Source: a virus
Reading direction: 5' to 3' (one strand)
IMG/VR virus record: IMGVR_UViG_3300030450_002456
Coordinates: 1 to 20,324 of that record
Length of the DNA: 20,324 nucleotides
Shown: positions 1-20,323 of the stretch, in pieces
Layout: each line of letters starts with the position of its first letter
Numbering within the stretch: the stretch's first letter is position 1
The notes under the pieces: model-generated
Seen by the model: the letters and a program-made list of their open reading frames with translations, nothing else
Databases searched by the model: none
Told to the model about the DNA's origin: nothing
Program-made: the position numbers and the translations under genes

Positions 1-1237
1 TTTTTTCAAATCTAGGGACGCAACGATCTTTAACTTCCCTTACAATTCTTTGTCCACTTCTATCAACAATACCACCTTGTAATATTGATGCTTTGTCAGA
101 TAAAGTTGCATTAGTTGGAATATCAATAGTAATACCATTAATAGTTCCATGTCCACGTTTTCCAATTTTTGATTTTACTTCAAGATTTTTAAAGTTAAAT
201 TCCTTAGAATTTGTTAATTTTCTTGTGCTAATAACAGTATTACTAGGATCGTCAGGTCCATCTGAATCAAACTTTTGTTCTACGTAAGATGTTCCAAGAT
301 CCTGTCTTCCATCATTTGTATGCACTTCGTTTCTAGGTTGAAAATGATGACCCGTGCCTTGAAAAGTACCAAGGTCTCCCCCTAAAACCTCTATTGGATC
401 TGGTTCTTTTACTAAATTCTTGTTATCTTCATTTACTTTATCTTTATTTTTCTCTATTTTTTTATTTTCAAGCTCTTGACAATCAACACATCCATCTCCT
501 TCTGGGTTATCGCAAAGTCCTTGCTGTTCACAAGTACGTAAACCTGATACATCTTCTTCACATTCACAATCAACGTCAATAGGTAGCATCTTTCCTTGAT
601 CAGGACCTGGGCACATACATTCTCTTTCAGTTGTGCCAGCCGGATAAGTACACGAACCATCGTCTTGTGTAGCGTCTTCGTTATAATTTTCAGCATTAGG
701 ATCCGTACATCCAGAAACAATAGGATCTTTATATTCACAACAATCTGGACACTTTTCTGTAGCGGTAGGATCGTAATTTAAAGCAGTAGTATCTGTACAT
801 CCAACTTTAGTTACATCATCATCATTAATGATAGGTGGAGGAACATATCCAGGTGTATCAGGATCATCAGTTACACCAGTACCTCCAGTACCACCAGCTC
901 CACCCGGTCCGCCTCCATGATGATATATATCTACACGTTGGCTACTATCTTTTTTATCTACACATTCACAATTTTTATTTAAGACTTTAGGTTCTACACA
1001 CGCTTCTTTTTGTTCGTCAGTACATTTTTTACCAGCACGTTCTTTATTACCCATGATACTTTGTAAAGTATCTTTTAAAGGATCCATCATCTTGTTAATA
1101 TCAACTTCTCCGTAACCAGTATATGAATCACCTCCAGAATATTTACTAGTTAATCCCGCTTGTTTTACAAGTGTTGAATTTAGTTTAAATGGATTTATAT
1201 CTTTAAATGATGTCGGTTTTTTATCTTTTTTCGCCAT
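1..1237 (-). CDS. Cys-rich GCTD-repeat virion protein, probable tail fibre or adhesin (partial, cut by left edge)
   Basis: The frame is open from an ATG at 1237 to the first base of the window, giving 412 visible residues with no stop, so the C-terminus is missing. The N-terminus is lysine-rich (MAKKDKKPTSFKDINPFKLN). Residues 67-253 hold 18 cysteines. A glycine-rich linker lies at about 107-121, followed by two copies of the GCTDxxAxNYxxxA motif, starting at residues 146 and 176; the second ends DDGSCTY. This repeat is known mainly from secreted proteins of marine Bacteroidota. Residues about 255-290 are charged and lysine-rich, and the rest (KIGKRGHGTINGITIDIP and on) looks beta-rich. It lies 12 bases after the internal-virion-type gene, at the distal end of the tail module. 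I infer a tail fibre, spike or accessory adhesin that forms disulfides outside the cell. The protein family as a whole is not recognised. Confidence 0.7.
   Translation of the reverse strand, partial: MAKKDKKPTSFKDINPFKLNSTLVKQAGLTSKYSGGDSYTGYGEVDINKMMDPLKDTLQSIMGNKERAGKKCTDEQKEACVEPKVLNKNCECVDKKDSSQRVDIYHHGGGPGGAGGTGGTGVTDDPDTPGYVPPPIINDDDVTKVGCTDTTALNYDPTATEKCPDCCEYKDPIVSGCTDPNAENYNEDATQDDGSCTYPAGTTERECMCPGPDQGKMLPIDVDCECEEDVSGLRTCEQQGLCDNPEGDGCVDCQELENKKIEKNKDKVNEDNKNLVKEPDPIEVLGGDLGTFQGTGHHFQPRNEVHTNDGRQDLGTSYVEQKFDSDGPDDPSNTVISTRKLTNSKEFNFKNLEVKSKIGKRGHGTINGITIDIPTNATLSDKASILQGGIVDRSGQRIVREVKDRCVPRFEK
644..802 (-). repeat. Two GCTD Cys-rich protein repeats in the left-edge gene
   Basis: Residues 146-198 of the left-edge protein contain GCTDTTALNYDPTATEKC and, 30 residues on, GCTDPNAENYNEDATQDDG followed by SCTY. 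The same motif occurs in the muzzle protein at 4923-5396. Confidence 0.8.
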
Positions 1238-2835: not shown

Positions 2836-4032
2836 TTATGTTAGTGTTATAGTTACTGTTTTAGTTGCGCTATCTGTTGTACCATCGTTACACTTAAAAG
2901 TGAATGTGTCTGTTGCACCTGCAGATCCACTAGTATTGTTATATGTTATACTTGATCCTGTAAAAGTATTATTGTTAAAAGCTGTAGAATTGTTTCCAAC
3001 ACTACCTTTTGAAGGTCCTGCTACTCTTGAATATGTTTTACTACTTGCGTTAGCATCTGTATCACCAGTACCACAATTTATTGAAACTGTAGCTCCAGCT
3101 GTACATGTAGCAGTTTGATCGCTTGCGTTTGGTACTGTAGTTACATTTTGCTCTAATTGCCACTGTATTGTTTGATCAGCGTAACCATAAGAAAGTATAT
3201 CAGCTTTTGCTGTAGCTGTTAAAGATGTAGTTCCACTACCTGTAATAGTTGCCTCAAATACATCAACTCTCCAACTTCCCATAGAGAAAAATAATACATC
3301 TCTTTCTTTTAATCCTTTAGGCCATTTTGTAAGCGTTATTATATCACTACCATCTTTAGAAATTGTTATTTGTTCTTTTATAGTACTATGAAACACAGTC
3401 ATACCATCTAAAAGATTAGTATCATCATTTAGATGTATTTTTCTAGTTGCTGGATTCATTTTTTGAATAGTATATTCTGCCCAATTACTATTAACGAAAT
3501 CCCCGCCAGTAGCGGCATTAATTAAAGGGACTCTTGTAACATAAAGTAAAGCTGAACTTTTACTAACGGCACCTGTCACGCTTATTCTATTAAGTCCTTT
3601 AGCTATTTCATTTTCACCCTCTTCTTCGTTTAATTTTAATTCAGGTTTCGTAACTAGAGTTGTATCTAAAGCCGCTGCTATAGTGTATCCAGCCGTACTA
3701 TGTCTAGTGTCCCAAGTTAATGTTTTTGTAGTATATTCTTTTAAACTGAGTTCATTTGGTGTTCTAAGATTTTTTTCATTCAAAAATGTTGATACAACTT
3801 TTTCTTTACCTTTTAACGTTACGTCAAACGTGTCATCACTTGAAACTGTTGGAATATAAACATTTACTACGGCAGTCCCACTATCACCTATAACTTTTCT
3901 TACTCTAGTTAAAGTTGATGTAAATTCCTTAGTTCTTTGGTCGTAAGTATTTCCAGCGGAATTAGTTATAGTGACATCCGTGATAGAACCAGGTTTTCCT
4001 GTTAATAATATATTTTTATATTCTTTAGACAT
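2836..4032 (-). CDS. Phage structural protein with C-terminal Ig-like domain
   Basis: The protein is 398 residues long. Residues about 1-295 are beta-rich with no recognised domain. Residues 297-398 form a separate Ser/Thr/Asn/Gly-rich domain that ends in ATDTFTFKCNDGTTDSATKT and two further strands. That ending is the signature of Ig-like/cadherin-like domains seen in large bacterial surface proteins and as add-on domains in phage structural proteins. Such domains in virions usually project from the capsid or tail and bind weakly to carbohydrates or cell surfaces. The gene is 32 bases after the muzzle gene and one base before the 121-residue gene. I infer a tail accessory or decoration protein; a head fibre is the main alternative. 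Three cysteines fall inside the Ig-like domain, which is unusual for this domain type in bacteria and echoes the Cys-rich repeats next door. Confidence 0.6.
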   Translation of the reverse strand: MSKEYKNILLTGKPGSITDVTITNSAGNTYDQRTKEFTSTLTRVRKVIGDSGTAVVNVYIPTVSSDDTFDVTLKGKEKVVSTFLNEKNLRTPNELSLKEYTTKTLTWDTRHSTAGYTIAAALDTTLVTKPELKLNEEEGENEIAKGLNRISVTGAVSKSSALLYVTRVPLINAATGGDFVNSNWAEYTIQKMNPATRKIHLNDDTNLLDGMTVFHSTIKEQITISKDGSDIITLTKWPKGLKERDVLFFSMGSWRVDVFEATITGSGTTSLTATAKADILSYGYADQTIQWQLEQNVTTVPNASDQTATCTAGATVSINCGTGDTDANASSKTYSRVAGPSKGSVGNNSTAFNNNTFTGSSITYNNTSGSAGATDTFTFKCNDGTTDSATKTVTITLT

Positions 4033-4064: not shown

Positions 4065-7000
4065 TTAACAAAAATCTATGTCTAATTCTAATACTAAATC
4101 AGAGTTAGGCATAGGTACTGGGTTTAAAGCTACAATTACATTTACTGTATTAGATAAAGAACCAACAGTCAAATTAGGATTATAATTTGGGTTTGGATTA
4201 GTTGGACTATTAGGATTACTCCAATCTGTATATACAGAATTACTTGAATCTTCAAAAACTACAAAAGCAACTTCTGGTGGTAAACTACCACCTGTAAAAG
4301 TTCTTGGTATTGTGTTTGTTAAAGTAGAATTTCCAATACAAAAATCAGATGCTTGTATATTGTTTGCGCCTACAGGATTTAAAACCATATAACTAACTGG
4401 AGGTATAGTTGTTCCAGGTATAATATTTTGATAATCAGTATCAGCTGGTGTATTACCACTTCCAGATCCAGAGGAGTAAGAAACCTGCCATAATCCGGTT
4501 CCTTGATCTTGATCTCCTAAATCTTGCGTTATTATATTAAAAGTATCACAAGCCCCACATGTTACATCTATATTTATAGTTTGACCAACCCCACCTGGTG
4601 AAGGTAGGAATGTTGGGGCCATATTAAATAAATTACTTAAAAATACATCAATTATCGCTGGATTCACGGAATTAGGAGACATGTTTATTATTTCTGTTCC
4701 AGTTGGTAAATATTGACTTGAAACACTACAACCAATTACTATATTGTTTTGTTGAATAGTAGTGTCAAAAATTTGGATATGATTACTATTAGAAATCCAT
4801 GGACCAGGTGTTGTCGCAGTTGCACCCATACTTCCACCACCTAAAGTACCGCCTTGTATATTAGGGTGAAACCCAGATCCTGGTTGTGCGTTAACATCTA
4901 AATTTACTGTTGTAGTTGCTGTACAATACGTACAACTTCCATCATCACAAAGAGCTGAAACATCATAATTAAGAGCTAAAGGATCTGTACATCCACAATA
5001 AATACAAGTGCCATCATCAATAACTGCACCGGCATAGTAATTATAAGCTGTAGGATCAGTACAACCAAATAATATGGCTGGATAGTTGCAACAATTAGTA
5101 AGATTTTCCCCTGTTGGATCATCAGGTGAACAGCAATCAAATTTATAATCAAAATTATCAGCTGCAAAACCAATAGGTTGGCTATTGGCATCTATACAAG
5201 GAGTACCACAAGGGTTTTGAAATCTATCTAGACCTATCCCAGTAATTGGGTCTGGATTAAATGGGAAATAACCAACTTGATTATCTGTACAACCATATTC
5301 ATAACAACAACATTCAGTGTCATTTCCACCTACAACATTACTACAATCAGAAGTAGCATTTGGATCAAAATTCAATGCTGTCGGATCTGTACAACCAGGA
5401 ATATTTACACCTTCAATCATACTAGAGGCCATATCAATACCTTGAAAAGAAAATTCTTTTAAATCTATATTTCCTAAATTTGTAGATAAACCTTTCATTC
5501 TGGAAAACCACTTACCTTCTTTATCTTTAAATAATAACCTATCACTAGTTTGTAAATTAGTTTCTCCACTACTAACAAACCAACCAAATCTAGCTTCGTT
5601 ATTATAATATTCAGGATCAGTTGAGTTAATATCTATTCTAGCTTGACTACCTTCGTAATTTAAAGAACCAAAACTTTTCACAGAATCCGGTTGTTGATTT
5701 AAAAGAACATCAACAAATGGATCTCTTCTAGCCCCGTAAAATGTAGCTGTAGGTCCAGGTTCGTGATGTCTAAATATATTACCATTACTAAACGTGTAAT
5801 AATTATTGTTTAAACTAGTTCCACCTTGTTGTATAAAAGATTTAAAACTAGTCCAACCATTTGTTCTTTCACCAAAACTAATAGTTTCGTTATCTGGTTT
5901 AATTAATGTTAAATTATAAGAATCTTTTTTGTCATCGTAACTACCTATAGCACGTGTTGTATTTCTAAGTTCATCAGCAAAATAATCTTTCATACCATGG
6001 TCAGATATTGGTACAACACCATTACTGTCCATTTTTAATACAACACCTCTAGATCTATCTGTAAAGTAAGCTTTATAAGCTTGAGAAGCAAAAGATTCTG
6101 GATTTTTAGATATACCATATTCTCCACCCATTGGTGTCGCTTGCCCTAAAACTTTATCAGTAGCAACTAATTGAGGATTACCATCTGCGTTATACAAAGC
6201 ATCTTTATTAGATAATATTCTTAAAATTTTATCTTCACAAAGAGCAATTAAATCTTGTTCTCTAGCATGAAGTTTTTGTATACTTCCATGTCTTGGATTT
6301 AGATCTTTTGTAATTTTTTCTGCTGCTATAAACTCACTAGTATTATTAACACCGCTACTAGAATTGTAAATACCTGAATATATTAAACTATTTGCTTTTC
6401 TTGTTTCTCTATATCTTTTAGCTAAAGTTGTTGAAACTCTAGGTCCTTTATCCATAATAACAGCATTAAAATCATCTCTTATTCTATTAGATTCAACTCC
6501 ATTACCGAAAGAGTAACAATTAAACCAATTTAAATCTATTTTAGAGTTCCAAACGTTTCTGTGTAATATTATTTCTAAAAATCCGTTATTATTAGGAAAT
6601 ATACCGGTAAAATAATTTATATCATTTGTAAAAATACTAGCGGTTATAGTTCCACCACCTATTTTATCAAATATAATACCATTAGGACTATTTAATCCTA
6701 AACTAGGATTATGAGCCAAAGACCAAGGTATAAATATATTATCATAACTAAAACCTGGAGGAGAAGCTGAACCTGAGTTATACCCAGATCCAATAATTTT
6801 ACAATCTAAAGTTATTCTATTATCATTCCACATTTTAACTTTTGGTAAAGTTACTTTTGTTATAGTTATGGGTTGATTCGTATAACTACCATCAGCAACT
6901 TCACTCATTGTTAACTCTAAACCGTCATCAGATATAGACTCTATAAACGTTCCTGCAGGAAAAACAGTAGGTATAAGATTAGAAGAGTTTTGTATAGTAT

Positions 7001-10000
7001 CTCCTGGACTAACAAAATTACTAACATTAGCGCTTATTATTACTTTATTATCACCATCAGATATATCAATTGTCCAAGGTGTTGCAGGTGCAAGATCTTT
7101 CCATGTTTGTAATAAACCGTCTGGATGATCTATTCTAACTTCACTTCCAATAGGTACAAAAAGTTCGTTATTATTATTATTTAATCTTATAGGAAATGCT
7201 TGATCCATTTCATGATAAATATCTAATCCAATATCTTCTTTTGGTTCTGTTTCAAATACAGCAGGGCTTTCACTCATTGGTTTATCAGCTTCTGTATTAT
7301 ATTTTTGTACTATTTGTATGTGATTATAAAACTTATTGTTATTTTGAACTTTAGTATCATTATAAGTAGTTCCATTTGGATGAGATGAAAGCATTTGAGT
7401 TGGAGGATTATTTGGATTGGAATAACCAGGGTCGTTACCATAAGTTGTTGGTTGTTCTATTGATACATGATTTGTTGCACTTGGAGATCCAGAATAATTA
7501 TTATTTTTAGTTGGATCCCAATTATTATTTACCCAATAAGTGCCAGAGTTTGTCTCTATATTATCATCTATCCATGTCGGATTAAAGTCTTTTATATTTG
7601 ACTCAAATACATAACTACCACCAGCGTTTTTCATCCAACCAGTAGCTTTTAAATCTATATATATTCTTTTTGTTTTATTACTTCGAAATTTTCTTTTACT
7701 ACCATTTCCACTCCAATTATATATACCTGACCCATGTCCATACGCAGCATCTTCTTGTGCTATACCTCTCCTTATTTCATAAACAATTCCATTAGGATCT
7801 TCTTTCCATCTAATCCAACTAGTTTCAGTTTTCATGGCATTGTAAAAATTTATCTGCTCAGAATCATGTAAGGCCATACTAAAACCTTCTTTAGCCCAAT
7901 CATTAATTCCACTTATAGATAATTCTAAATGGCTCTTTTTAAAACCAGCTCTATTATTCGTAATACCATACCCATCGTCTTGTGGGTAAGGACCTTTTTT
8001 AGGTGAATTACCCCAGTTTCTTTCAATTTCATCAATATAAAACCCAAAACCTATAACATCTGTCCAAGAGTTACTTCCTTGCCATTGTTTTTCTCTACAG
8101 TAAGCGTTGTCTACGCCAGAACTTTTTATATAATATTGTTTTTGTTCTTGTAAGACTGTAAATTGCGAACCTAAGTCACTTTTTCCTGTATCTATATTAG
8201 TTAGTAAAGTTGAATCTTGTTTTATTTTTACAAAAAATCTACCTTGAAATTCTGGTTTGTTATGTACTTTTTCTTGAGCTACTTCTGCTTTAGTGCCTGG
8301 AGAAACAGATGCAGCTCCTCCAAAAGTAGTAGCTGTAACATCAACCCCAAAAGAAGTTTTAAGTTTAATTGTGTTTACTGTAGTATCACTAGTATTAACA
8401 TTTTTAACTCTAAACCAATCTGTAGTTGCGTTAGCATCAAAAATTCTAACAACCATCCCTTGTTTCTCTCTTGTAGTATCATTTAATGTTCCATCACCAC
8501 CATCGTAGTTTATACTACCATCTGCAGATACAAATGTTTGACCAGCATTTATTTGTACAATACCTAAAGATACTCTTTCTGTTTTTATCCAATCAGGTGC
8601 TTCATTTTCTATCGCTATAACTTTATATCTAGCTGGTTCTTCAACAAAAGTATCTACATCATGTCTTTTCTTAAGTATTAAATACGTATCTTCATCTACT
8701 TTATTTCTTTCAGCAGAAGGAAAAGATAACCATATATGACCATCTTGAGCGTCATACCATCTGTCTAATGCTAAGTTATAATACTCATTAGAAGTTTCTT
8801 TAATAAAAAACTTATAACTATCTGCCCATGAAGGTGGTGGATTTTTAGATTGTACAGAAAGACTATTGTAATCATTAGCTAAACTTTTAGCTATATTAAA
8901 AGATGCTTTTTCATTTGTAAAAACAGGTGTTTCTCTACCAAAATCATCTTTATAAATTATACCAACTTGGTATGTTCTTAAAGATTTAATAGATGGTTCA
9001 CCCATAAGGTGCGCTACTTCCTTTGTTAAATCATTAGATAAATCTTTTGATTTTACATAAGTTTGTATATTTACGTTTGGAGTATTGTTATTCCATTGCA
9101 TATTATAACCTTCAACATAATTACCATATATAACTCTATTAGCGCTTATTTCTTGCGCTTTAGCTAATCTAGGTACATTATCCCAAGGTCTTAAAGCTTG
9201 GTTTGATGGAACAGTCGCGTATATAACTTCTGATTCTAATTGTATTGCACCTTTTGTTTGTCCTGTCCAAGGCGCTTGTGATGTTGTATGTCCATATTCT
9301 AACCACTCTGGATCTCCTTCTTTTATAGTTTTTACAGTGTAAACATTAGGTGAATTAGATTCTTTATATAATATATCTATTTCTATAACACCTGGTGGTA
9401 TGCCATCTGGTACAAAATCTAATATTTTAATAAATCTAATTTGATTAATCATTCCTAAATTATGAGCTTCTTTAGCACTGTATTTAAAAGATCCTGCTAA
9501 AAAAGCTATTTCTGAAAATGGAGAAAATGACGAATATTCTCCATCTTGATATTTATATCTATATGCAAATCGTGGGAATTTAAACTCAAATAGAGATTTG
9601 GATTGTTCTAAACATATAGCCCAATTTTGATCAGGGTCACCGTTTGCATCTACTGAGTAAGGAAAGAAATCTTTTTTGAATGATAATATTTTAACGGTTA
9701 ATGTTAAAGCGTTGGTGTCTTTATTTGTAACAACAACTCTTATTTTACCATCTGTAAAAACTTGAGGGATTGTTAAAATAGAAGATTCATCTGTTAATAA
9801 TAAAATATCTCCAATTTCAAAATCAGGTATACTATTTGCAAATGGTATCTCTACTGTAGTCCCTGTAACAAATGGTTCTATTTCATATATTGGAGAAGAT
9901 CCTTGAGTTACAGCATTGGGATTATCTAAAACTGATTCTGAAAAGTTAATAAAATCTGTTACACCAAAAACAACGCCTCTAGCGTTAATATCACGATACA

Positions 10001-10970
10001 TTTCTAAATTTGGAGGAGTTAAAGGATTTTGTTTTATAACTGTTGCATCTCTTTCTTTAGCAAACTCTTTATATTGTATTGCCGAACCAATAACTCCATC
10101 TTTATAAACAACATATTTAGTGTGTATATTGAAACTAGGAGTACCATTTTTAGATACTTGAATATTTATTTTTTTAGGTTCACTTATATTATCAGTCCAA
10201 AATAATAAATTATCTATTATATTTATACCTGTAATATGTCTTTCTTGTGTAAAATTTAAAATTCTTTTACTTTTGAAAGTTATTACATCGCCAGCTACAC
10301 CACCGGTAAAAGTATAATGTGCATAATTTGATGGTCTAGCATAAATCTCATATTGCGTACCAGCTGAATTCGTATTTACACTATCAACAACAAAAGGTCC
10401 TCCAAAATCATCAATTAAGTTACCATTATTATCAATTATTTGACCACTATTAGTTGTCATAATTAAATCTTGATTTGGTATTATACCTACGTTGCTCAAT
10501 GTACCATCTAACAACATGCCCTCTCTTATATTTTCGTATATATTGATATTGGTAGGTGCACTTATAAAAGAACTACCAGAACCAGTAAATTGAGAAAAAG
10601 TTGCTATTGGAAAATTTAAGTTAAAATCTACTTCATATACATCTACAAAAACAGGTATAGCACCACCACTTTCACTATACTCTACTATCATATCTTTTGC
10701 AATACCATTAAACTTATTGCATCTTATAAAATAATAGATTTTATTACTTTTCTCATTAGTTATAGATCCTACAACTTCTCCTCCACTTGGCGTTAAAGAA
10801 TTTGTAGCTAAAATATTTCCTCTAACAGACTGCACAGCACCAACATTTGAACCTTCTGAAGTAGAAACTTCAATGTTCATTGCTCTTCTATATTCTCCGT
10901 CTGGTACTAGTCTTTCATCAAGGTCTAGATTCATTCTACCCTTAATAAAGTTCTGCTTTAACTCTGGCAT
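4065..10970 (-). CDS. Giant tail muzzle/nozzle (tail stabilisation) protein with Cys-rich C-terminal extension
   Basis: This 2301-residue protein is the largest in the window. The N-terminus, with KGRMNLDLDERLVPDGEYRR and STSEGSNVGAVQSVRGN, matches the pattern I associate with the tail stabilisation or muzzle proteins of Bacteroidota phages (role like P22 gp10 or T7 gp12). The long middle is beta-rich with many Asn, Trp and Tyr. Residues about 1555-1730 read like a continued beta-propeller (LHAREQDLIALCEDKILRIL, then DRSRGVVLKM). From 1859 to 2016 lie four GCTD Cys-rich repeats, and the last 285 residues are Ser/Thr/Asn/Pro-rich and end in Cys. T7 gp12 is about 794 residues, so this is nearly three times that. 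The gene starts 3 bases after the 401-residue ring-like gene, fitting neck-to-tail order. I infer that the core forms the tail tube tip and the extension faces the host. Confidence 0.72.
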   Translation of the reverse strand: MPELKQNFIKGRMNLDLDERLVPDGEYRRAMNIEVSTSEGSNVGAVQSVRGNILATNSLTPSGGEVVGSITNEKSNKIYYFIRCNKFNGIAKDMIVEYSESGGAIPVFVDVYEVDFNLNFPIATFSQFTGSGSSFISAPTNINIYENIREGMLLDGTLSNVGIIPNQDLIMTTNSGQIIDNNGNLIDDFGGPFVVDSVNTNSAGTQYEIYARPSNYAHYTFTGGVAGDVITFKSKRILNFTQERHITGINIIDNLLFWTDNISEPKKINIQVSKNGTPSFNIHTKYVVYKDGVIGSAIQYKEFAKERDATVIKQNPLTPPNLEMYRDINARGVVFGVTDFINFSESVLDNPNAVTQGSSPIYEIEPFVTGTTVEIPFANSIPDFEIGDILLLTDESSILTIPQVFTDGKIRVVVTNKDTNALTLTVKILSFKKDFFPYSVDANGDPDQNWAICLEQSKSLFEFKFPRFAYRYKYQDGEYSSFSPFSEIAFLAGSFKYSAKEAHNLGMINQIRFIKILDFVPDGIPPGVIEIDILYKESNSPNVYTVKTIKEGDPEWLEYGHTTSQAPWTGQTKGAIQLESEVIYATVPSNQALRPWDNVPRLAKAQEISANRVIYGNYVEGYNMQWNNNTPNVNIQTYVKSKDLSNDLTKEVAHLMGEPSIKSLRTYQVGIIYKDDFGRETPVFTNEKASFNIAKSLANDYNSLSVQSKNPPPSWADSYKFFIKETSNEYYNLALDRWYDAQDGHIWLSFPSAERNKVDEDTYLILKKRHDVDTFVEEPARYKVIAIENEAPDWIKTERVSLGIVQINAGQTFVSADGSINYDGGDGTLNDTTREKQGMVVRIFDANATTDWFRVKNVNTSDTTVNTIKLKTSFGVDVTATTFGGAASVSPGTKAEVAQEKVHNKPEFQGRFFVKIKQDSTLLTNIDTGKSDLGSQFTVLQEQKQYYIKSSGVDNAYCREKQWQGSNSWTDVIGFGFYIDEIERNWGNSPKKGPYPQDDGYGITNNRAGFKKSHLELSISGINDWAKEGFSMALHDSEQINFYNAMKTETSWIRWKEDPNGIVYEIRRGIAQEDAAYGHGSGIYNWSGNGSKRKFRSNKTKRIYIDLKATGWMKNAGGSYVFESNIKDFNPTWIDDNIETNSGTYWVNNNWDPTKNNNYSGSPSATNHVSIEQPTTYGNDPGYSNPNNPPTQMLSSHPNGTTYNDTKVQNNNKFYNHIQIVQKYNTEADKPMSESPAVFETEPKEDIGLDIYHEMDQAFPIRLNNNNNELFVPIGSEVRIDHPDGLLQTWKDLAPATPWTIDISDGDNKVIISANVSNFVSPGDTIQNSSNLIPTVFPAGTFIESISDDGLELTMSEVADGSYTNQPITITKVTLPKVKMWNDNRITLDCKIIGSGYNSGSASPPGFSYDNIFIPWSLAHNPSLGLNSPNGIIFDKIGGGTITASIFTNDINYFTGIFPNNNGFLEIILHRNVWNSKIDLNWFNCYSFGNGVESNRIRDDFNAVIMDKGPRVSTTLAKRYRETRKANSLIYSGIYNSSSGVNNTSEFIAAEKITKDLNPRHGSIQKLHAREQDLIALCEDKILRILSNKDALYNADGNPQLVATDKVLGQATPMGGEYGISKNPESFASQAYKAYFTDRSRGVVLKMDSNGVVPISDHGMKDYFADELRNTTRAIGSYDDKKDSYNLTLIKPDNETISFGERTNGWTSFKSFIQQGGTSLNNNYYTFSNGNIFRHHEPGPTATFYGARRDPFVDVLLNQQPDSVKSFGSLNYEGSQARIDINSTDPEYYNNEARFGWFVSSGETNLQTSDRLLFKDKEGKWFSRMKGLSTNLGNIDLKEFSFQGIDMASSMIEGVNIPGCTDPTALNFDPNATSDCSNVVGGNDTECCCYEYGCTDNQVGYFPFNPDPITGIGLDRFQNPCGTPCIDANSQPIGFAADNFDYKFDCCSPDDPTGENLTNCCNYPAILFGCTDPTAYNYYAGAVIDDGTCIYCGCTDPLALNYDVSALCDDGSCTYCTATTTVNLDVNAQPGSGFHPNIQGGTLGGGSMGATATTPGPWISNSNHIQIFDTTIQQNNIVIGCSVSSQYLPTGTEIINMSPNSVNPAIIDVFLSNLFNMAPTFLPSPGGVGQTINIDVTCGACDTFNIITQDLGDQDQGTGLWQVSYSSGSGSGNTPADTDYQNIIPGTTIPPVSYMVLNPVGANNIQASDFCIGNSTLTNTIPRTFTGGSLPPEVAFVVFEDSSNSVYTDWSNPNSPTNPNPNYNPNLTVGSLSNTVNVIVALNPVPMPNSDLVLELDIDFC
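4923..5396 (-). repeat. Four GCTD Cys-rich protein repeats in the muzzle C-terminus
   Basis: Residues 1859-2016 contain GCTDPTALNFDPNATSDC, a longer Cys-rich unit starting GCTDNQVGYFPFNPDP, then GCTDPTAYNYYAGAVIDDG and GCTDPLALNYDVSALCDDG; each of the last two is followed by a Cys and a CGC or TYC end. The underlying DNA repeats the plus-strand word gatctgtaca or close variants. The repeat type is known mainly from secreted Bacteroidota proteins. Confidence 0.85.
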
Positions 10971-10973
10971 ATA

Positions 10974-12179
10974 TTAGTGTTTTATATGTTTAGATTTACC
11001 TCTTAATACTTGAGTTAACTCTTCTAATTTTATATTTGATAATCTTAATTTTGCTTTTCTTGTTTCAGCAAATCTATCTTTCTTTAATCTAGCAATTAAA
11101 CTTTCTGGTATATTAACTCTTGTTGAAAGTATAGCGTAAGCCATATGTTTATACATAGCTTCTTCAGCGAGTTTATGAACTACCATTTCTTCATCAGTTC
11201 CTAAACCATCGCTTATATATTTTATTATTATAGTTCTTCCTTCAACATTAGAACTAAAATGTACTTTTCCGCCAATTTCATCTATAAAAAACGATCCGTT
11301 TGTTTGGGCATGTCCAGGTTCTAATCCGTATCTACCACCTAAATTTGGCCAGTAAGTATCGTCTTCATAATCGTCAACTTTGTTTGTTTCAGCAGGTGTT
11401 ATAGATTTATAATTATTCCAAGTTTCATTTTTATCTAACACATCTATTGTTATGGGTCCATTTACTACTGCTGTATTTGTGCTTTCATGAGATAAAGTAA
11501 TTGACATGTTAACAGAACTAGTAGCTTCCGTGACTGTTGATATAGTAGTTCCTGCTGGAAAATAAGGACTAACTATTTCCATACCCTCTACAAATGGATT
11601 TTTATCTGGAAAATTTTCATAACCAGGATTCGTTGTTAAATCATCCGTAGTATTATCAAAACCTAATACATGTGGAAATATCTCTATAACAGTTTGTCCA
11701 ATTTGTAAATCATCTTGTAATTGCAATTTAAAAGGAAATTGTATAATATCATTTGGTGAACCTGTACTATCAACATCTATATTATCTGTAGCAAATATAT
11801 AGTTACCATCACTATCTTGCGCTATGGAATTTGGATTTGAAGTTTTTGAAACAGGATATAATACGTGTTCTATACCAGAATCATCAGAATAAGCAAACTT
11901 AACATAATTAACATAATCTTGTGGTAATGGCATTACTAAAGATGGTGGTAGTTCTATTTCTTGTGATTTAATAGACTTTAACGTATCATAACTAAATTCT
12001 TGTAAAGCTCTTTGAGCGTAAAAAGCGACGTCAATTCTCTTAATTTTACCTATTATTTTATTTTCACCAACATATCCAATCATAAAGTTGCTAATTATAT
12101 GATCTAAAGATATAAATTGATAACTACCTAAGTTTGTTCCACTATAATAACTATGAGCTGATTCTTTTATTAACGCCAT
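10974..12179 (-). CDS. Ring or tail-tubular-type head-tail connector protein
   Basis: In this 401-residue protein, the N-terminal part (about 22-110) carries helices then AFYAQRALQEFSYDTLKSIK and ELPPSLVMPLPQDYVNYVKF. This helix-strand arrangement, with a PLPxDYVNYVK-type strand, fits the ring/tail tubular proteins that precede the muzzle gene in crAss-like and related phages. Residues about 150-250 look like an inserted beta domain (FPAGTTISTV at 207-216), and the same motif occurs in the muzzle protein. The C-terminus (about 325-401) is helical and very basic, ending GKSKHIKH. It lies between the 237-residue adaptor-like gene (1-base gap) and the muzzle gene (3-base gap), the place expected for a ring that joins neck and tail. 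The family is inferred from order and fold pattern. Confidence 0.55.
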   Translation of the reverse strand: MALIKESAHSYYSGTNLGSYQFISLDHIISNFMIGYVGENKIIGKIKRIDVAFYAQRALQEFSYDTLKSIKSQEIELPPSLVMPLPQDYVNYVKFAYSDDSGIEHVLYPVSKTSNPNSIAQDSDGNYIFATDNIDVDSTGSPNDIIQFPFKLQLQDDLQIGQTVIEIFPHVLGFDNTTDDLTTNPGYENFPDKNPFVEGMEIVSPYFPAGTTISTVTEATSSVNMSITLSHESTNTAVVNGPITIDVLDKNETWNNYKSITPAETNKVDDYEDDTYWPNLGGRYGLEPGHAQTNGSFFIDEIGGKVHFSSNVEGRTIIIKYISDGLGTDEEMVVHKLAEEAMYKHMAYAILSTRVNIPESLIARLKKDRFAETRKAKLRLSNIKLEELTQVLRGKSKHIKH

Positions 12180-12180
12180 T

Positions 12181-12894
12181 TTATTGTTTTACTTTTTGTT
12201 GAGTTATTATTTCCATTTCTTCGTTTGCTGCTGTTTGAGATAAACCTGGTTTATTTAAAACTATCCCAGCCATTTCTAATATTTTTATAACTAATAAATA
12301 TTCTTCAGAAGGATGTAATTCAAAATCTTGAGATGCACTCGCATTATACATCGCTTCACCCATAGTTATTACATATCCCCAATTAACTTTAGTTGGCTTT
12401 TTAATGTAAGTTGCAGTAACACCACTTGTTATAGTTGTTGTAGAAATTATTCTAATACCCTCTTCTCTACGTACAAACAATGGGCGTGATCTATCTGGTT
12501 TAGTTAATGGTGAGTTGTAATAGTCTAGTAACTCATCATCATTTATCTCTTGTATCTCAATACCGTCTTCTAATAAAGAAGTTTCTGCATAATATAACGT
12601 ACCCAATCTATACATGTCTGGTGGATATTGGAAAAAGTTATTTGCAAAAACTAAAGCTGTATCATATTTTTTAAATATACTTATTTTTTCATTAAGTATT
12701 TTTATCATATCAGAGTATTCAGTTTCATTACCCCGTATAGCGTTAAATTTATCTATATCATAAAAATATTGTTCAAATACAAGCATTTGTGCTTGATTAG
12801 CTAATAAATTAAATTCTTGAGGCGTTATATATCCTCTTTGTTCTTTATTTGCTAGTGCTAAAACTCTTTGATATACTGTATCTACGCTTACCAT
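12181..12894 (-). CDS. Putative head-tail adaptor protein
   Basis: The 237-residue protein has a helical N-terminal half (QRGYITPQEFNLLANQAQML and EQYFYDIDKF, about 19-50). A central strand region follows with NFFQYPPDMYRLGTLYYAE (about 86-104) and RPLFVRREEGIRIIS (about 138-152). Then comes ATYIKKPTKVNWGYV, and a helical end rich in Leu, Ile, Glu and Gln. Helices around a beta core, on a gene placed just before the ring and muzzle genes, suggest a dodecameric adaptor that binds below the portal. No named motif proves this; another neck or tail-completion protein is possible. The start at 12894 is 6 bases after the 68-residue gene, and a 1-base gap separates its stop from the next start, so the three neck genes look co-translated. 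Confidence 0.45.
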   Translation of the reverse strand: MVSVDTVYQRVLALANKEQRGYITPQEFNLLANQAQMLVFEQYFYDIDKFNAIRGNETEYSDMIKILNEKISIFKKYDTALVFANNFFQYPPDMYRLGTLYYAETSLLEDGIEIQEINDDELLDYYNSPLTKPDRSRPLFVRREEGIRIISTTTITSGVTATYIKKPTKVNWGYVITMGEAMYNASASQDFELHPSEEYLLVIKILEMAGIVLNKPGLSQTAANEEMEIITQQKVKQ

Positions 12895-14055: not shown

Positions 14056-15558
14056 TTACTGCATTAACATAAAGTTGTTTGCACCTTGAGTGATTAAACA
14101 TCTTTCTGATAACATGTGTATTTGCATTGCGTCTAACGCAGATGTAGTAGCTCCAACAGAACCAGTAACCCAAGTTTTGAATTTTCTGTTATCTGTTTGA
14201 GAAGCTCTATAACGAACGTGTAAGAAAGGTCTTTTAAGATTCTTTCCTAATTGTTGGTCATAAACTGTAGATGTACCAGCTGGAATAATAACCCCTCTGA
14301 TAGCTGCAGATGTAGCTGTATCATTAATACCACCTCTTGTAGCTTTATCATTTAAGTATCTAAAGTCTGATTTATAGAAATCATAAGAACCTCTTCTAAA
14401 TCCAGAGAAACCTAAATTAAGCGCCATATCTTCTTCGTTGTCAAATACTCCATAAGAAGTACCTCCAGCTCCGTAAGAATTCATTGAAGCTAACATGTCA
14501 TCGATTGCTAGAGACGTAGCTCTATTAACAAACATCATATTTTCTTCAATAGCACCTTGATTGTCAAACTCAGCTAAAATAGCATCAAATTCAGCTAAAT
14601 CAGTAGCAGCGTTAACACCAGTAATACCAGAAGTAACGTTACCTCTTTCAGAAATAGCGTCAAATAAACCTTGTGTACCTGCTCCACCAGCACCTAAATC
14701 AGCACCACCGTGAGACCAACCAATAACAGAAGCATCTGCTGTTTGCTCAGATTCTAGCATAGCCATTTCCATATAATCAGTAAAACGCATTCTAGTTTCA
14801 GCTTCAGCTTTTAAATACCAAAGATATCCACTAGTTCCGTCTTCAGCAGATATTTCAACCCAACCAATTCTAGATGCATCAGAACCTGATACTTCGTAGT
14901 AATCTTTCATAATAATTGGTTTGTTGCTAAAAGACTTAAATGTAGGTTCGTTAGCTCCATGTGAATCTTGAGCTGTAGCAGCGTCACTAGCAGCATAGTA
15001 AGATAATCCTTTACCCCACTCAGAACCAACAACTAATAAAGTAGATCCACCAACCGTTGTTGCGTGACCAGTTAAATCAGCTTTGTCATAAGGTTCTACT
15101 TCTATTTTTGCTGTATTTGATTCAACAACCTTACATTTAGTAACAATACCAGCACTTGCAATAAGTACAATATCATTTACTCTAACACCGTGATCAGCTA
15201 AAACAAAAGCTGGTGTAGATGAAGCGTTGTTTCCATCAATATCCGCAGTAACAGTAAACGTACCGTTTGTGTCACCTGCTGTTGCTACAGTACCTCTTAC
15301 TGAGATATGTAGTCTTGATTGTTCAGACCATACCACCTGATCAGATGTCATGCTCTCTTCAGCTCCAACTTGTGAAAGAAATCCAGATATAGTCCTAGGA
15401 CCAAATACCTCCGCTTCTTTCTCCATTAGATCTGGTAGATACTGCTGAGCCCATGTGTTGTCAGTAGTACCTGTAAAATCTAGGTAGTTTGTAGCTAGTG
15501 TTTGCTTCTGTGAAGAAGGAACACTATTCAATAAACCACCTGGGTTTGAAATTGCCAT
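14056..15558 (-). CDS. Major capsid protein
   Basis: This 500-residue protein has the layout of a HK97-fold capsid protein of crAss-like or related phages. An N-terminal arm (1-45) leads to a helix and the segment EAEVFGPRTISGFLSQVGAE (about 48-67). A beta-rich stretch at about 83-178 looks like an inserted domain. A conserved-looking core follows (YYEVSGSDASRIGWVEIS, then a long helix LKAEAETRMRFTDYMEMAML), and the C-terminal half ends in strands and a helical tail. Its place after portal and scaffold-like genes, and before a strong terminator, fits. The composition is less AT-rich than neighbours: one sampled line (14701-14760) has 28 G+C of 60, while a muzzle line (6541-6600) has 15, which fits high expression. 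The assignment rests on gene order and overall pattern, not alignment. Confidence 0.82.
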   Translation of the reverse strand: MAISNPGGLLNSVPSSQKQTLATNYLDFTGTTDNTWAQQYLPDLMEKEAEVFGPRTISGFLSQVGAEESMTSDQVVWSEQSRLHISVRGTVATAGDTNGTFTVTADIDGNNASSTPAFVLADHGVRVNDIVLIASAGIVTKCKVVESNTAKIEVEPYDKADLTGHATTVGGSTLLVVGSEWGKGLSYYAASDAATAQDSHGANEPTFKSFSNKPIIMKDYYEVSGSDASRIGWVEISAEDGTSGYLWYLKAEAETRMRFTDYMEMAMLESEQTADASVIGWSHGGADLGAGGAGTQGLFDAISERGNVTSGITGVNAATDLAEFDAILAEFDNQGAIEENMMFVNRATSLAIDDMLASMNSYGAGGTSYGVFDNEEDMALNLGFSGFRRGSYDFYKSDFRYLNDKATRGGINDTATSAAIRGVIIPAGTSTVYDQQLGKNLKRPFLHVRYRASQTDNRKFKTWVTGSVGATTSALDAMQIHMLSERCLITQGANNFMLMQ

Positions 15559-16727: not shown

Positions 16728-19157
16728 TTATAAAAAACCTGCTATACCCGGAATTTGTGATAAACCTTCTTCTTCAGGTGGTAATTGAGTTGGTTCTTCA
16801 AAAGTTCTAGGTGGTGTCTTTTTTTCTTTTTGATCTAATAATTCACTTTTTTGTGTAGCTTCCATTTTAGATCTTTTATCTTTTCTATCTTCTTTAACGA
16901 TTTCTTTTTCTTTTAAACCGTCTACTTCTAATCTTTTAAGTCTAAGATTAATTTCAAACTCATGATCCATTAATTCTTTTTTAAGCGCAGCTTCCATTTG
17001 CATTCTTTGAGCTTGTAATTGTGATTTAGTTCTTTCTAAATTTAATGTAGCATCTGTTTCCATTTGTTTCTTTTGCATTTCAGATTCTGCAGCTGCTCTT
17101 TGTGTATCTGCATTAGCAATAGCTTGAGCCTGTATATTTTCTTGCTGCATCTTCTGATCTCTTTCTAACTTTTTCTTTCTACGTATTTTTAAAAGTTGAT
17201 TAGCTAATTTAACATTTCTAATATCTCTTAAATCAATAGCGTCTTCTAGATCTATACTTTGTTGAGTTAATGCCATTTGTATATTATTTTCTAATACAGC
17301 TTGTTGCTCTTCATCTGGCATCAATTCTATAAATATACCAAAATCATATAGGTGTAATTGAGATAATTCTTCTAAAACAGCGACATTATGAGAACCTATA
17401 GATTGTATAAAAGCATCTTTTGTTGGTGAATATTCTATTATATCAGATATTCTAAGTGATAAAGCTTCTGCTACTTCAGATGTTAAAAATAATCCACCTT
17501 GAAGTATATGTCTTGTTGCTGTATTAGAATTAGCAGCTGCTAACTTCTGTACCCCAACTAAAGAATATTTTTCAGGTAAACTACCATCACTAGCCTCGTT
17601 TAATCCAGTTACATCTCTTATCATTTGTAAATAATAATTATATGTATTAATTAAACTTTGTATTTTATTACCTCCTGCCCCACTTTGAATTTCTTGAATA
17701 GGTATTTTACCAGGATTTTGATCTCCGTCGCCAGTAAAGCTTCTACCAATAACAGAACCTGTTTGAAAAAACATATTTAAAGCCTCTTGTGGATTGTAGT
17801 TTGTTCCATTACCTAAATCAACCTCAGCTAAACCATCTGCGTCAAGATACACACCATCTGGTACCATACGGGACATTACTTGCTGTAATTTTAAATGCGT
17901 AAGTTGAATCATATCTGCAAAACCAGTAATTCTACCTACTAAACTTTCTATTTTACCATCATACATTCTAGGTGCACATATAGCGTAATTCATTTTAACT
18001 TTAGTGTAATCGCTTTTAGGGCGCATCATGTTTTGTGCCATTTCCCATTTAAGTAACTTATCACTACCTAAAACCATAGCCCCTTCAAATAAAACTTCAA
18101 TACATCTTTTCATTTTACTATAATCTCCCTCTTTATTTTCAGGTGGATTAAAAGTATCATCTTTTTCAATAGCTTTATCACCTCCAGATTTAGTTTCTTT
18201 CATTTTATAAACCTCATTCATATAGGTTTTATAATTAAAATAAAGTACTGATATTTTGTTTCTATCATCTTGACGATCATCACTATCAAATCCATACAAT
18301 CCTCTATTACCACCACCTTGCTGAACTATTTCTTCTAAATTTTCATGTGTTAATTCTGGAAATTGTTTAACTAATTCGTTGATTGGTATTCTTTTTACTT
18401 CGCCGACATAATAAACATCTTCAAAATAAGGTGATTCTGTATAAGAATAAACTAAATTAGCTGGATCTACGTAATCTATAGTTACGCCTTCAGATTGATT
18501 AAAGGAAGTTTTTACAGCACCAATCCCTAAAACTGCTAAATCATAATAAAAACGTTTTTTAGTTAACTCATACCTATTACCTTCCATTAAGGTATTTATA
18601 GCTTGCTCCTCAGCTATTTCTGTAGCTTGTTTATAAGTTAATTGCATGTGAAGATCTAACTCTTCTTGTGAATTAGGTATTTCTTCTTTTTTATTATCCG
18701 AAATATCTACACCTAATGCTTCCATTACTAAATCTTGCATACTAGCTGTTTCCATATCTGTCATAAGTGACTCCATGTATTCAGTTCTTTTGGCTACACC
18801 GAAAGGGTCTTGAGAAAAAGCTTTAACATCATACATTCTCTCAGCTATTCCATTTACAACTATATCTACAAATTTAGATACTATTGGAACTGGTTTCCAA
18901 TCTAAATTAAGATAAGATAAATCACCATTAATAGATAATTCATCTTTATATTTTTGAATAGACTGTTCACCTCTAGCATACAGTCTTAAGTTGTGATATC
19001 TATTATTATCATTAACAAATCTATTACCACTACTTTTATTATTAAACCATTCGTTAGCTATAGCCCTACCTACCTCTAAACCGTATTCTCCAGACATCTT
19101 TTCTAGATCACTAACTATTTGACTTGGAAACGTGGTATTTATAACTGTTTTTAACAT
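16728..19157 (-). CDS. Portal protein
   Basis: This 809-residue protein is a long portal of the type found in crAss-like and other large podoviruses. Residues about 20-645 are alpha-beta, with features expected of the portal wing, clip and stem, including a long stretch around LVGRITGFADMIQLTHLKLQ and ARMYDGKIES-type segments. Residues about 650-780 are a very long Gln/Lys/Glu-rich coiled coil (AAAESEMQKKQMETDATLNL and onward), which would form the barrel or crown facing the DNA. The last 30 residues are Pro/Glu-rich. The start is the ATG at 19157, 5 bases after the terminase stop and with an A/T-only leader. Order terminase-portal-scaffold-capsid supports the call. It would form a 12-fold channel through which the terminase pumps DNA. 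Confidence 0.82.
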   Translation of the reverse strand: MLKTVINTTFPSQIVSDLEKMSGEYGLEVGRAIANEWFNNKSSGNRFVNDNNRYHNLRLYARGEQSIQKYKDELSINGDLSYLNLDWKPVPIVSKFVDIVVNGIAERMYDVKAFSQDPFGVAKRTEYMESLMTDMETASMQDLVMEALGVDISDNKKEEIPNSQEELDLHMQLTYKQATEIAEEQAINTLMEGNRYELTKKRFYYDLAVLGIGAVKTSFNQSEGVTIDYVDPANLVYSYTESPYFEDVYYVGEVKRIPINELVKQFPELTHENLEEIVQQGGGNRGLYGFDSDDRQDDRNKISVLYFNYKTYMNEVYKMKETKSGGDKAIEKDDTFNPPENKEGDYSKMKRCIEVLFEGAMVLGSDKLLKWEMAQNMMRPKSDYTKVKMNYAICAPRMYDGKIESLVGRITGFADMIQLTHLKLQQVMSRMVPDGVYLDADGLAEVDLGNGTNYNPQEALNMFFQTGSVIGRSFTGDGDQNPGKIPIQEIQSGAGGNKIQSLINTYNYYLQMIRDVTGLNEASDGSLPEKYSLVGVQKLAAANSNTATRHILQGGLFLTSEVAEALSLRISDIIEYSPTKDAFIQSIGSHNVAVLEELSQLHLYDFGIFIELMPDEEQQAVLENNIQMALTQQSIDLEDAIDLRDIRNVKLANQLLKIRRKKKLERDQKMQQENIQAQAIANADTQRAAAESEMQKKQMETDATLNLERTKSQLQAQRMQMEAALKKELMDHEFEINLRLKRLEVDGLKEKEIVKEDRKDKRSKMEATQKSELLDQKEKKTPPRTFEEPTQLPPEEEGLSQIPGIAGFL

Positions 19158-19162
19158 ATTTG

Positions 19163-20323
19163 TTATTTAATTAATCTTGAAAAACTGCCTTTATTAGAGT
19201 ACTTAGCAATATTCAAATTTAGTTTTTGTTTTTCTACTTTTGCATTTGGAGTATACAAATGTCTATTACAAGCCATTATAGCTAATCCAGAACTTATTGT
19301 TGCGTCAAATTTAGTTCTTTTTGTTATGTCAAATCTACCCCAATCATTTAATGTTCTATTAAAATATATATTTCCGTAATTCCCATCCCCTAAATGACCT
19401 ACGTGTTGTTGGATGTACATTTCAATAGCCGCTGCGTGTGCTTGTTTTATATCTTCACTTGAATTAGGTATTCCACCTATTTCTTTTTCTGCTATAGATA
19501 ATTTATTCCAAGATTTATCTGGCCTATTCATAGAATAACCTCTATATCCTCTTCTTCTTAAATAATACAACAATCTTGGTTTGTTATTTTCACAAAGAAG
19601 TGGCATTCCATAAAATACTAAAGCCATTAAAACATCTTCAAAAAATATTTCAGCTGTTGGAGGTCTAGATACATATTCTAAGAAAAAATGATTTGGAGGA
19701 GCGTCCTCCATACTAAATTTAGTTAAACCATGTAAAGCACCGTTAGATCCTCTTCCATCTACTGTTCCTGATATATCATAACTATCACATCCAAATGCTC
19801 CCATATGTTCATTTGCTGGATATTTTATACCTTTTTTTATTAATTGTTTATTTTGTAAATGCGTAGGTGGTACCCAACTTATTTTAAATCTTCCTTTTTG
19901 ATCAGGATAAAATATTACTTGTGTATCTTTTACTCCATTAACCCATTGAAAATTACCAGTATTAACATTAGATATTGTACCGGTACCGTCATTATAATCT
20001 ATCTGTTCGTATATTTTAACTAAATTAAATATAGAATTTACAGCTTCATCTCTAAACGCATGTTCTTCTGTTCTTGGGAACTGTCTATAAAACTCATTTA
20101 AAGCATCGTGATCTTGTTTTAAACCTTCAGCTTCGTTATCCCAATGCTCTATTATTCCTATATCTATTAATTCACCGTCTGGGCCGTGGACATCTGCGTC
20201 AGGAGTATCAAATACTGGAAGTCCGTACTCATCAATAAATCCTTCGTAGTTCCATTCCATTGGGATAAACAAAGAGTATAAACCAGATTTTGTCTGACCA
20301 TTTCTATTTCTCTGTGTGACATC
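19163..20323 (-). CDS. terL: Large terminase subunit, C-terminal part with nuclease domain (cut by right edge)
   Basis: The frame is open to the right edge, giving 386 visible residues. The first are DVTQRNRNGQTKSGLYSLFI, so a TTG at 20272 is internal and not a start. The N-terminal ATPase (Walker A and B) is outside the window. An RNase H-like nuclease domain follows, with FGCDSYDISGTVDGRGSNGA (Asp180 of the visible part is the likely first metal ligand). LLCENNKPRLLYYLRRRGYR (Glu245) and KFDATISSGLAIMA (Asp340) match the further acidic ligands and final helix of the family. The enzyme cuts concatemeric DNA and drives it through the portal. The portal gene starts 5 bases after its stop, so the two are co-translated. 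The C-terminal tail is basic and ends SFSRLIK. Confidence 0.85.
   Translation of the reverse strand, partial: DVTQRNRNGQTKSGLYSLFIPMEWNYEGFIDEYGLPVFDTPDADVHGPDGELIDIGIIEHWDNEAEGLKQDHDALNEFYRQFPRTEEHAFRDEAVNSIFNLVKIYEQIDYNDGTGTISNVNTGNFQWVNGVKDTQVIFYPDQKGRFKISWVPPTHLQNKQLIKKGIKYPANEHMGAFGCDSYDISGTVDGRGSNGALHGLTKFSMEDAPPNHFFLEYVSRPPTAEIFFEDVLMALVFYGMPLLCENNKPRLLYYLRRRGYRGYSMNRPDKSWNKLSIAEKEIGGIPNSSEDIKQAHAAAIEMYIQQHVGHLGDGNYGNIYFNRTLNDWGRFDITKRTKFDATISSGLAIMACNRHLYTPNAKVEKQKLNLNIAKYSNKGSFSRLIK

Follow-up and report, generated by a model that had tools for sequence, protein, structure and literature searches.

Tandem GCTD units in the C-terminal extension of a predicted crAss-like phage muzzle protein: a possible docking point for exchangeable modules

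A virus record from IMG/VR, analysed here over 20,324 bases (the window), encodes a 2301-residue tail protein that carries four Cys-rich GCTD units directly behind the conserved core of a predicted crAss-like muzzle. The position of this array, its recurrent presence and absence among relatives, a swap with a different kind of sequence and a divergence that increases outward were all observed, and the canonical array was predicted to have a stable fold. We lean cautiously towards a reading in which exchangeable modules can dock at the muzzle C-terminus, a site occupied here by a disulfide-stapled spacer that presents a fast-evolving distal domain for host contact. The C-terminus of crAss-like muzzles would accept such modules, and each 21-residue unit would be closed by a disulfide once outside the reducing cytoplasm. 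The array would then act as a compact, stiff spacer placing residues 2017-2301 outside the muzzle hexamer, presumably exposed on the virion, where this distal domain may help to contact the host surface. The array itself would be a general-purpose extracellular building block, passed between Bacteroidota surface proteins and phages over a long period. This phage tail architecture is among the most widespread, and the muzzle C-terminus would be an apparently unreported place of exchange on it. Muzzles, host T9SS surface proteins and phage-encoded T9SS proteins, three different settings, would be linked by a single small disulfide module whose fold is well predicted.

The window contains no tRNAs, and all features described below lie on its minus strand. 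In the order of transcription, the genes run from a probable terminase end (19163-20323), assigned by position alone as it had no family match, through the portal (16728-19157), a major capsid protein candidate (14056-15558) and two ring/tail proteins (12181-12894 and 10974-12179) to the muzzle gene (4065-10970), several small genes and an open ORF. Directly after the muzzle is a gene for a 398-aa protein with a Big_9 Ig-like domain at its end (2836-4032; E 2e-5), and a further small gene (1958-2428) matches a tail-fibre adhesin PHROG. The initial annotation had called the 2301-aa product a muzzle protein, and this was supported in several ways. The protein matched PHROG 14478 (E 2e-140), and its conserved C-terminal core (residues 1476-1858; 5397-6545), which is the beta-propeller part, ends with EFSFQGI and could be aligned across 49 sequences, matched the muzzle protein gp44 of PhiCrAss001 in a profile comparison (query 79-303 to residues 1055-1279 of 1371; hhalign probability 95.8, E 8e-9). 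When the confident part of the AlphaFold model of the core was used as a Foldseek query, the top PDB matches were 7qok and 7qol, the PhiCrAss001 muzzle (E 1.9e-9; PMC10172136), with tail proteins of P22 and Pa223 lower in the list; a sequence search of the muzzle against the PDB gave nothing useful. The likeness to gp44 lies in its C-terminal propeller region, by both profile and fold, and extends to the gene order of portal, capsid, ring proteins and muzzle, the muzzle gene being located near ring, capsid and portal genes as in crAss-like phages. Judged by sequence and modelled fold, the protein is a crAss-like muzzle of the gp44 type. However, gp44 stops about 12 residues beyond the end of the core and has neither an extension nor GCTD units, and so the extension seen here is extra. 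As the core end maps to the gp44 propeller, the point where the extension emerges may be close to the tail barrel or on the flank of the muzzle, and not at the distal tip. The nearest isolates by muzzle core (∼32% identity) were phages of Flavobacterium, Cellulophaga, Tenacibaculum and Maribacter, and the host is therefore probably a marine flavobacterium or a relative.

Residues 1859-2016, which correspond exactly to 4923-5396, comprise the four units, starting directly after the conserved core end. Unit 1 (residues 1859-1892; 5295-5396), identified by the unit HMM (E 3.5e-8) and its Cys positions, reads GCTDPTALNFDPNATSDC...CCCYEY and thus has a variant end (C...CCC) as well as a Phe in place of the Tyr. 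Unit 2 (residues 1893-1968; 5067-5294) is expanded by about 40 residues inserted after GCTDNQ, and was recognisable mainly by alignment with the related viral loci L004 and L005, the L005 counterpart having a canonical DDGSC end. Units 3 (residues 1969-1992; 4995-5066) and 4 (residues 1993-2016; 4923-4994), both found with the unit HMM, are canonical and show every element of the repeat (GC-x18-C, N9, A14 and DDGSC, in tandem), which unit 1 shows in part. The training set of the HMM included units 3 and 4 and not unit 1, which affects the E-values of the trained window units. The initial annotation was therefore right in placing four GCTD units near the muzzle C-terminus, although only units 3 and 4 are fully canonical, and the Cys enrichment it described is real (the 158-aa array has 19 Cys, whereas residues 1-1858 have 6 and residues 2017-2301 have 5), but the counts per unit are 5, 7, 3 and 4 rather than 2-4. 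When the extension was shuffled, none of 20,000 shuffles contained even one loose unit, which excludes chance as the source of the array. An assembly fusion was rejected, as L004 and L005 come from two other metagenomes and share the architecture. Pfam, PHROG and NCBIfam contained no family for the repeat, and no paper naming GCTDP as a repeat was found, the literature matches being unrelated plant papers.

The array-bearing muzzle is not unique to the window phage. Among 40 distinct muzzle relatives, chosen by muzzle similarity alone, 10 carried GCTD units, 11 had other extensions (Ig-like or Thr-rich stretches) and 19 ended no more than 50 aa past the core. When the repeat alone was used as the query, 17 of the 79 best loci were muzzle loci, and in many muzzles the array starts about 10 aa beyond the conserved muzzle end. 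On a tree of 56 cores, some of which had been selected for having repeats, repeat presence changed at least 8 times, with 5 of the changes forced by strongly supported branches; it was also clustered by lineage (at least 8 changes against a mean of 18.8 when shuffled). The architecture is already present in public data, since the BFVD model of the annotated muzzle of Virus NIOZ-UU157 (UniProt A0A7S9SUA2) is, among others, a match to the GCTD array, with 43% identity across 107 columns; this muzzle is a public record only, and no paper describing its repeat was found. The muzzle sits at the end of the tail, and length variation altering its surface has been documented (PMC10172136). The short ends of 19/40 relatives indicate that the muzzle as such can do without the array, and very different sequences occupy the extension site. 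Both points would fit a C-terminus that tolerates any sequence, with the arrays carried there by recombination and having no role beyond stability. However, whole clades retain their arrays, the signature of the unit shows conservation and this phage has units in another gene as well, and we consider it unlikely that the array is passive in this way.

Two pairs of close relatives were informative about the extension. L009 and its sister L011 have cores that are 84% identical, and the last ten residues of the two proteins are similar, but the two units of L009 are replaced in L011 by a Thr-rich stretch. L004 and L005, with cores that are 99.7% identical, differ in unit 2, which has the end CCSPDDPNGFNMGNCC in L004 and CDDGSC in L005. 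In four muzzles (L129, L130, L134 and L136) the array was the last, or nearly the last, part of the protein, and these are ill-suited to a pure spacer. The short remainder behind the array in several muzzles (L009, L129, L134 and L190), the variation of units between near-identical phages (L004 and L005) and the tolerance of the expanded units for insertions would suit an array that is itself the adhesin, binding a surface ligand directly and leaving the rest of the extension a secondary role. Against this, the unit is under strong constraint at most of its positions and is interchangeable with a Thr-rich stretch (L011), both of which are more like a spacer, and it has no known ligand; direct binding by the units appears to us rather unlikely, if worth keeping in mind.

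The reading of the array as a disulfide-stapled spacer is consistent with its composition and predicted structure. Extensions bearing repeats contain 5.3 Cys per 100 aa, compared to 0.6 for the core. Disulfides stabilise the PhiCrAss001 tail (PMC10172136), and by analogy disulfides formed in the units outside the cytoplasm are plausible for this group. A four-unit muzzle array (L045), modelled by AlphaFold with 74 aligned arrays, gave a pLDDT of 95.3 across all residues. The sole credible PDB match of the array was to MPEG1/perforin-2 (24 residues, 0.5 A rmsd, 54% identity), with a Foldseek E of 1.0 because the match is short, and a profile search agreed with it (E 0.0014). The truncated EGF-like module of this animal immune protein, located between its MACPF and P2 domains and described as a hinge (PMC6989145), is a single unit with all of the signature residues at the same spacing as in the GCTD unit. 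The six-cysteine EGF pattern was absent from the canonical unit, which has two Cys, and there was no match to an EGF family. The spacer reading draws on the high pLDDT and on the perforin-2 precedent, in which one such unit is the hinge joining two large domains, as well as on the Cys enrichment, the start of the arrays about 10 aa after the muzzle end, their patchy presence, the L009/L011 swap and the outward rise in divergence. The hinge module with the full GCTD signature can be seen in perforin-2 PDB entries 6u2j and 6sb1, and MACPF proteins of giant viruses were among the weak array matches in BFVD. A link between the arrays of bacteria and the perforin-2 of animals seems to merit a search of its own.

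Beyond the array lies the distal domain (residues 2017-2301, 285 aa with 5 Cys; 4068-4922), for which phmmer found relatives in L004 and L005 and in no other sequence compared. Identity between the window and L004 fell from 72% in the core to 67% in the array and 41% in the distal domain; the corresponding values for L004 and L005 were 99.7%, 94.7% and 91.1%. Divergence therefore grows outward, being lowest in the core and highest in the distal domain, where the faster change may reflect relaxed constraint. An AlphaFold model of the window core with its extension had a mean pLDDT of 50.8, that of the extension being below 40 and too low for use.

The unit is strictly 21 residues long (GC[T/M]D-P-x-A-x-N-Y-x-P-x-A-[T/N]-x-D-D-G-S-C) and in tandem arrays is mostly spaced at 24-26 residues. 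Genome contigs contained at least 595 stretches, mostly in Flavobacteriales and other Bacteroidota, and the unit was also found in Neomarinimicrobiota, Anaerolineae, CPR and archaeal genome bins. The earlier statement linking the repeat to secreted proteins of marine Bacteroidota was supported, the unit being common in exported proteins of this group, mostly from marine members: about 70 of the best 80 genome loci were from such organisms by record title, 57 of 68 host repeat proteins had a signal-peptide-like start as scored by a crude rule, and 23 of 56 host C-termini had a T9SS sorting domain (T9SS type A in 20, CHU_C in 3). One Flavobacteriales bin held 358 exact-pattern units, and a strict DNA pattern was present in 2 of 198 genomes sampled from the phylum to which the Flavobacteriales MAG G029 belongs, G029 itself being one of them, so that the occurrence of the unit is patchy and not general. 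The exported Bacteroidota proteins have the 21-aa unit, the spacing and the tandem arrangement in common with the muzzle, but differ in that they carry signal peptides and, in many cases, PF18962 or CHU_C, none of which the muzzle has. By the same kind of simple rule a signal-peptide-like start was seen in 0/55 muzzles, and residues 1857-2301 gave no T9SS sorting domain or any other Pfam match; without either element, the muzzle does not have the sequence features expected of a T9SS cargo protein.

It had been proposed that the window phage took up the module from its host. Host matches are strong, with unit 4 identical at 18/21 residues to host units in L047, L108 and L111, and a host genome may contain several hundred units (358 in one case), as would be expected if a surface module had recently been captured and served to mimic the host surface or bind to it. 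However, the array occurs at the same site in many phages, the unit is abundant in phage proteins, and the muzzle has no flanking host domains, T9SS domain or signal peptide. The 21-residue units are too short for phylogeny, but in a balanced comparison of nearest neighbours 39% of the units from muzzles were uniquely nearest to a muzzle unit and 8% to a host unit, the rest being tied; Cys at position 8 was found in 29% of host units and 6% of muzzle units. As muzzle units most often resemble muzzle units, a recent host donor is not supported, and we regard such a capture as very improbable. The observation that would have counted against transfer from the host, namely a repeat present in all close relatives and lacking host matches, was not made, since relatives vary and host matches are strong. 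On these sequence comparisons, a long-shared pool of units in Bacteroidota surface proteins and phages fits better than recent uptake.

Viral contigs contained at least 600 repeat stretches, and the non-muzzle repeat proteins of phages had a signal-peptide-like start in 34 of 53 cases. Of 28 phage contigs tested, 27 had exactly one PF18962 domain, usually within the array protein, and a T4-type gp23 capsid protein was also encoded on 11 of the 28. Phage array proteins resemble in this respect the phage-encoded T9SS cargo proteins of Cryophage (PMC7468147), which have T9SS type A sorting domains; those are enzymes and a PA14 protein, with no GCTD array reported there. We also noted a two-gene phage cassette (L173:3565-7624, L174:4423-8672, L195:3346-7984, L169:3754-8107 and others), in which the first gene encodes a signal peptide, GCTD array and T9SS type A sorting domain, and the second, often overlapping it by 1-18 nt, a signal-peptide-like protein of ∼360 aa. 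This partner had no match in Pfam, NCBIfam, PHROG or the PDB; it occurred in 39 viral loci, 24 of them at or near a repeat gene, in 1 of 40 repeat-rich host bins and in no phage isolate record. A speculative and distinctly unlikely extension would make arrays a common interaction language of Bacteroidota surfaces, with hosts coated in array proteins, crAss-like muzzle arrays engaging the coat, and T4-type phages using the host T9SS to export an array protein and its dedicated partner so that rival phages are blocked or redirected.

Units with a C..CC end (type B) were considered as phage-only and rejected as such: they were absent from 80 host loci, but 7 were found in 5 of 49 host genomes, and they are only commoner in phages than in hosts. 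They occur in 59 viral stretches (L210-L268), several within the first 20 residues of other-looking phage proteins. Finally, the second GCTD-unit gene of the window (2-1237), which encodes 412 aa and runs off the window end, carries two units missed in the first reading, one with a variant end (GCTDTTALNYDPTATEKCPDCCEY; 713-802) and one canonical (650-712; unit HMM), inserted ahead of a Cys-rich stretch. Its N-terminal 67 aa are common to genes of L004 and L005 that have no repeat; a search of viral contigs with this ORF found no relative beyond these two partial ones. Units in both the muzzle and the next gene were also seen in L131, L136 and L145.
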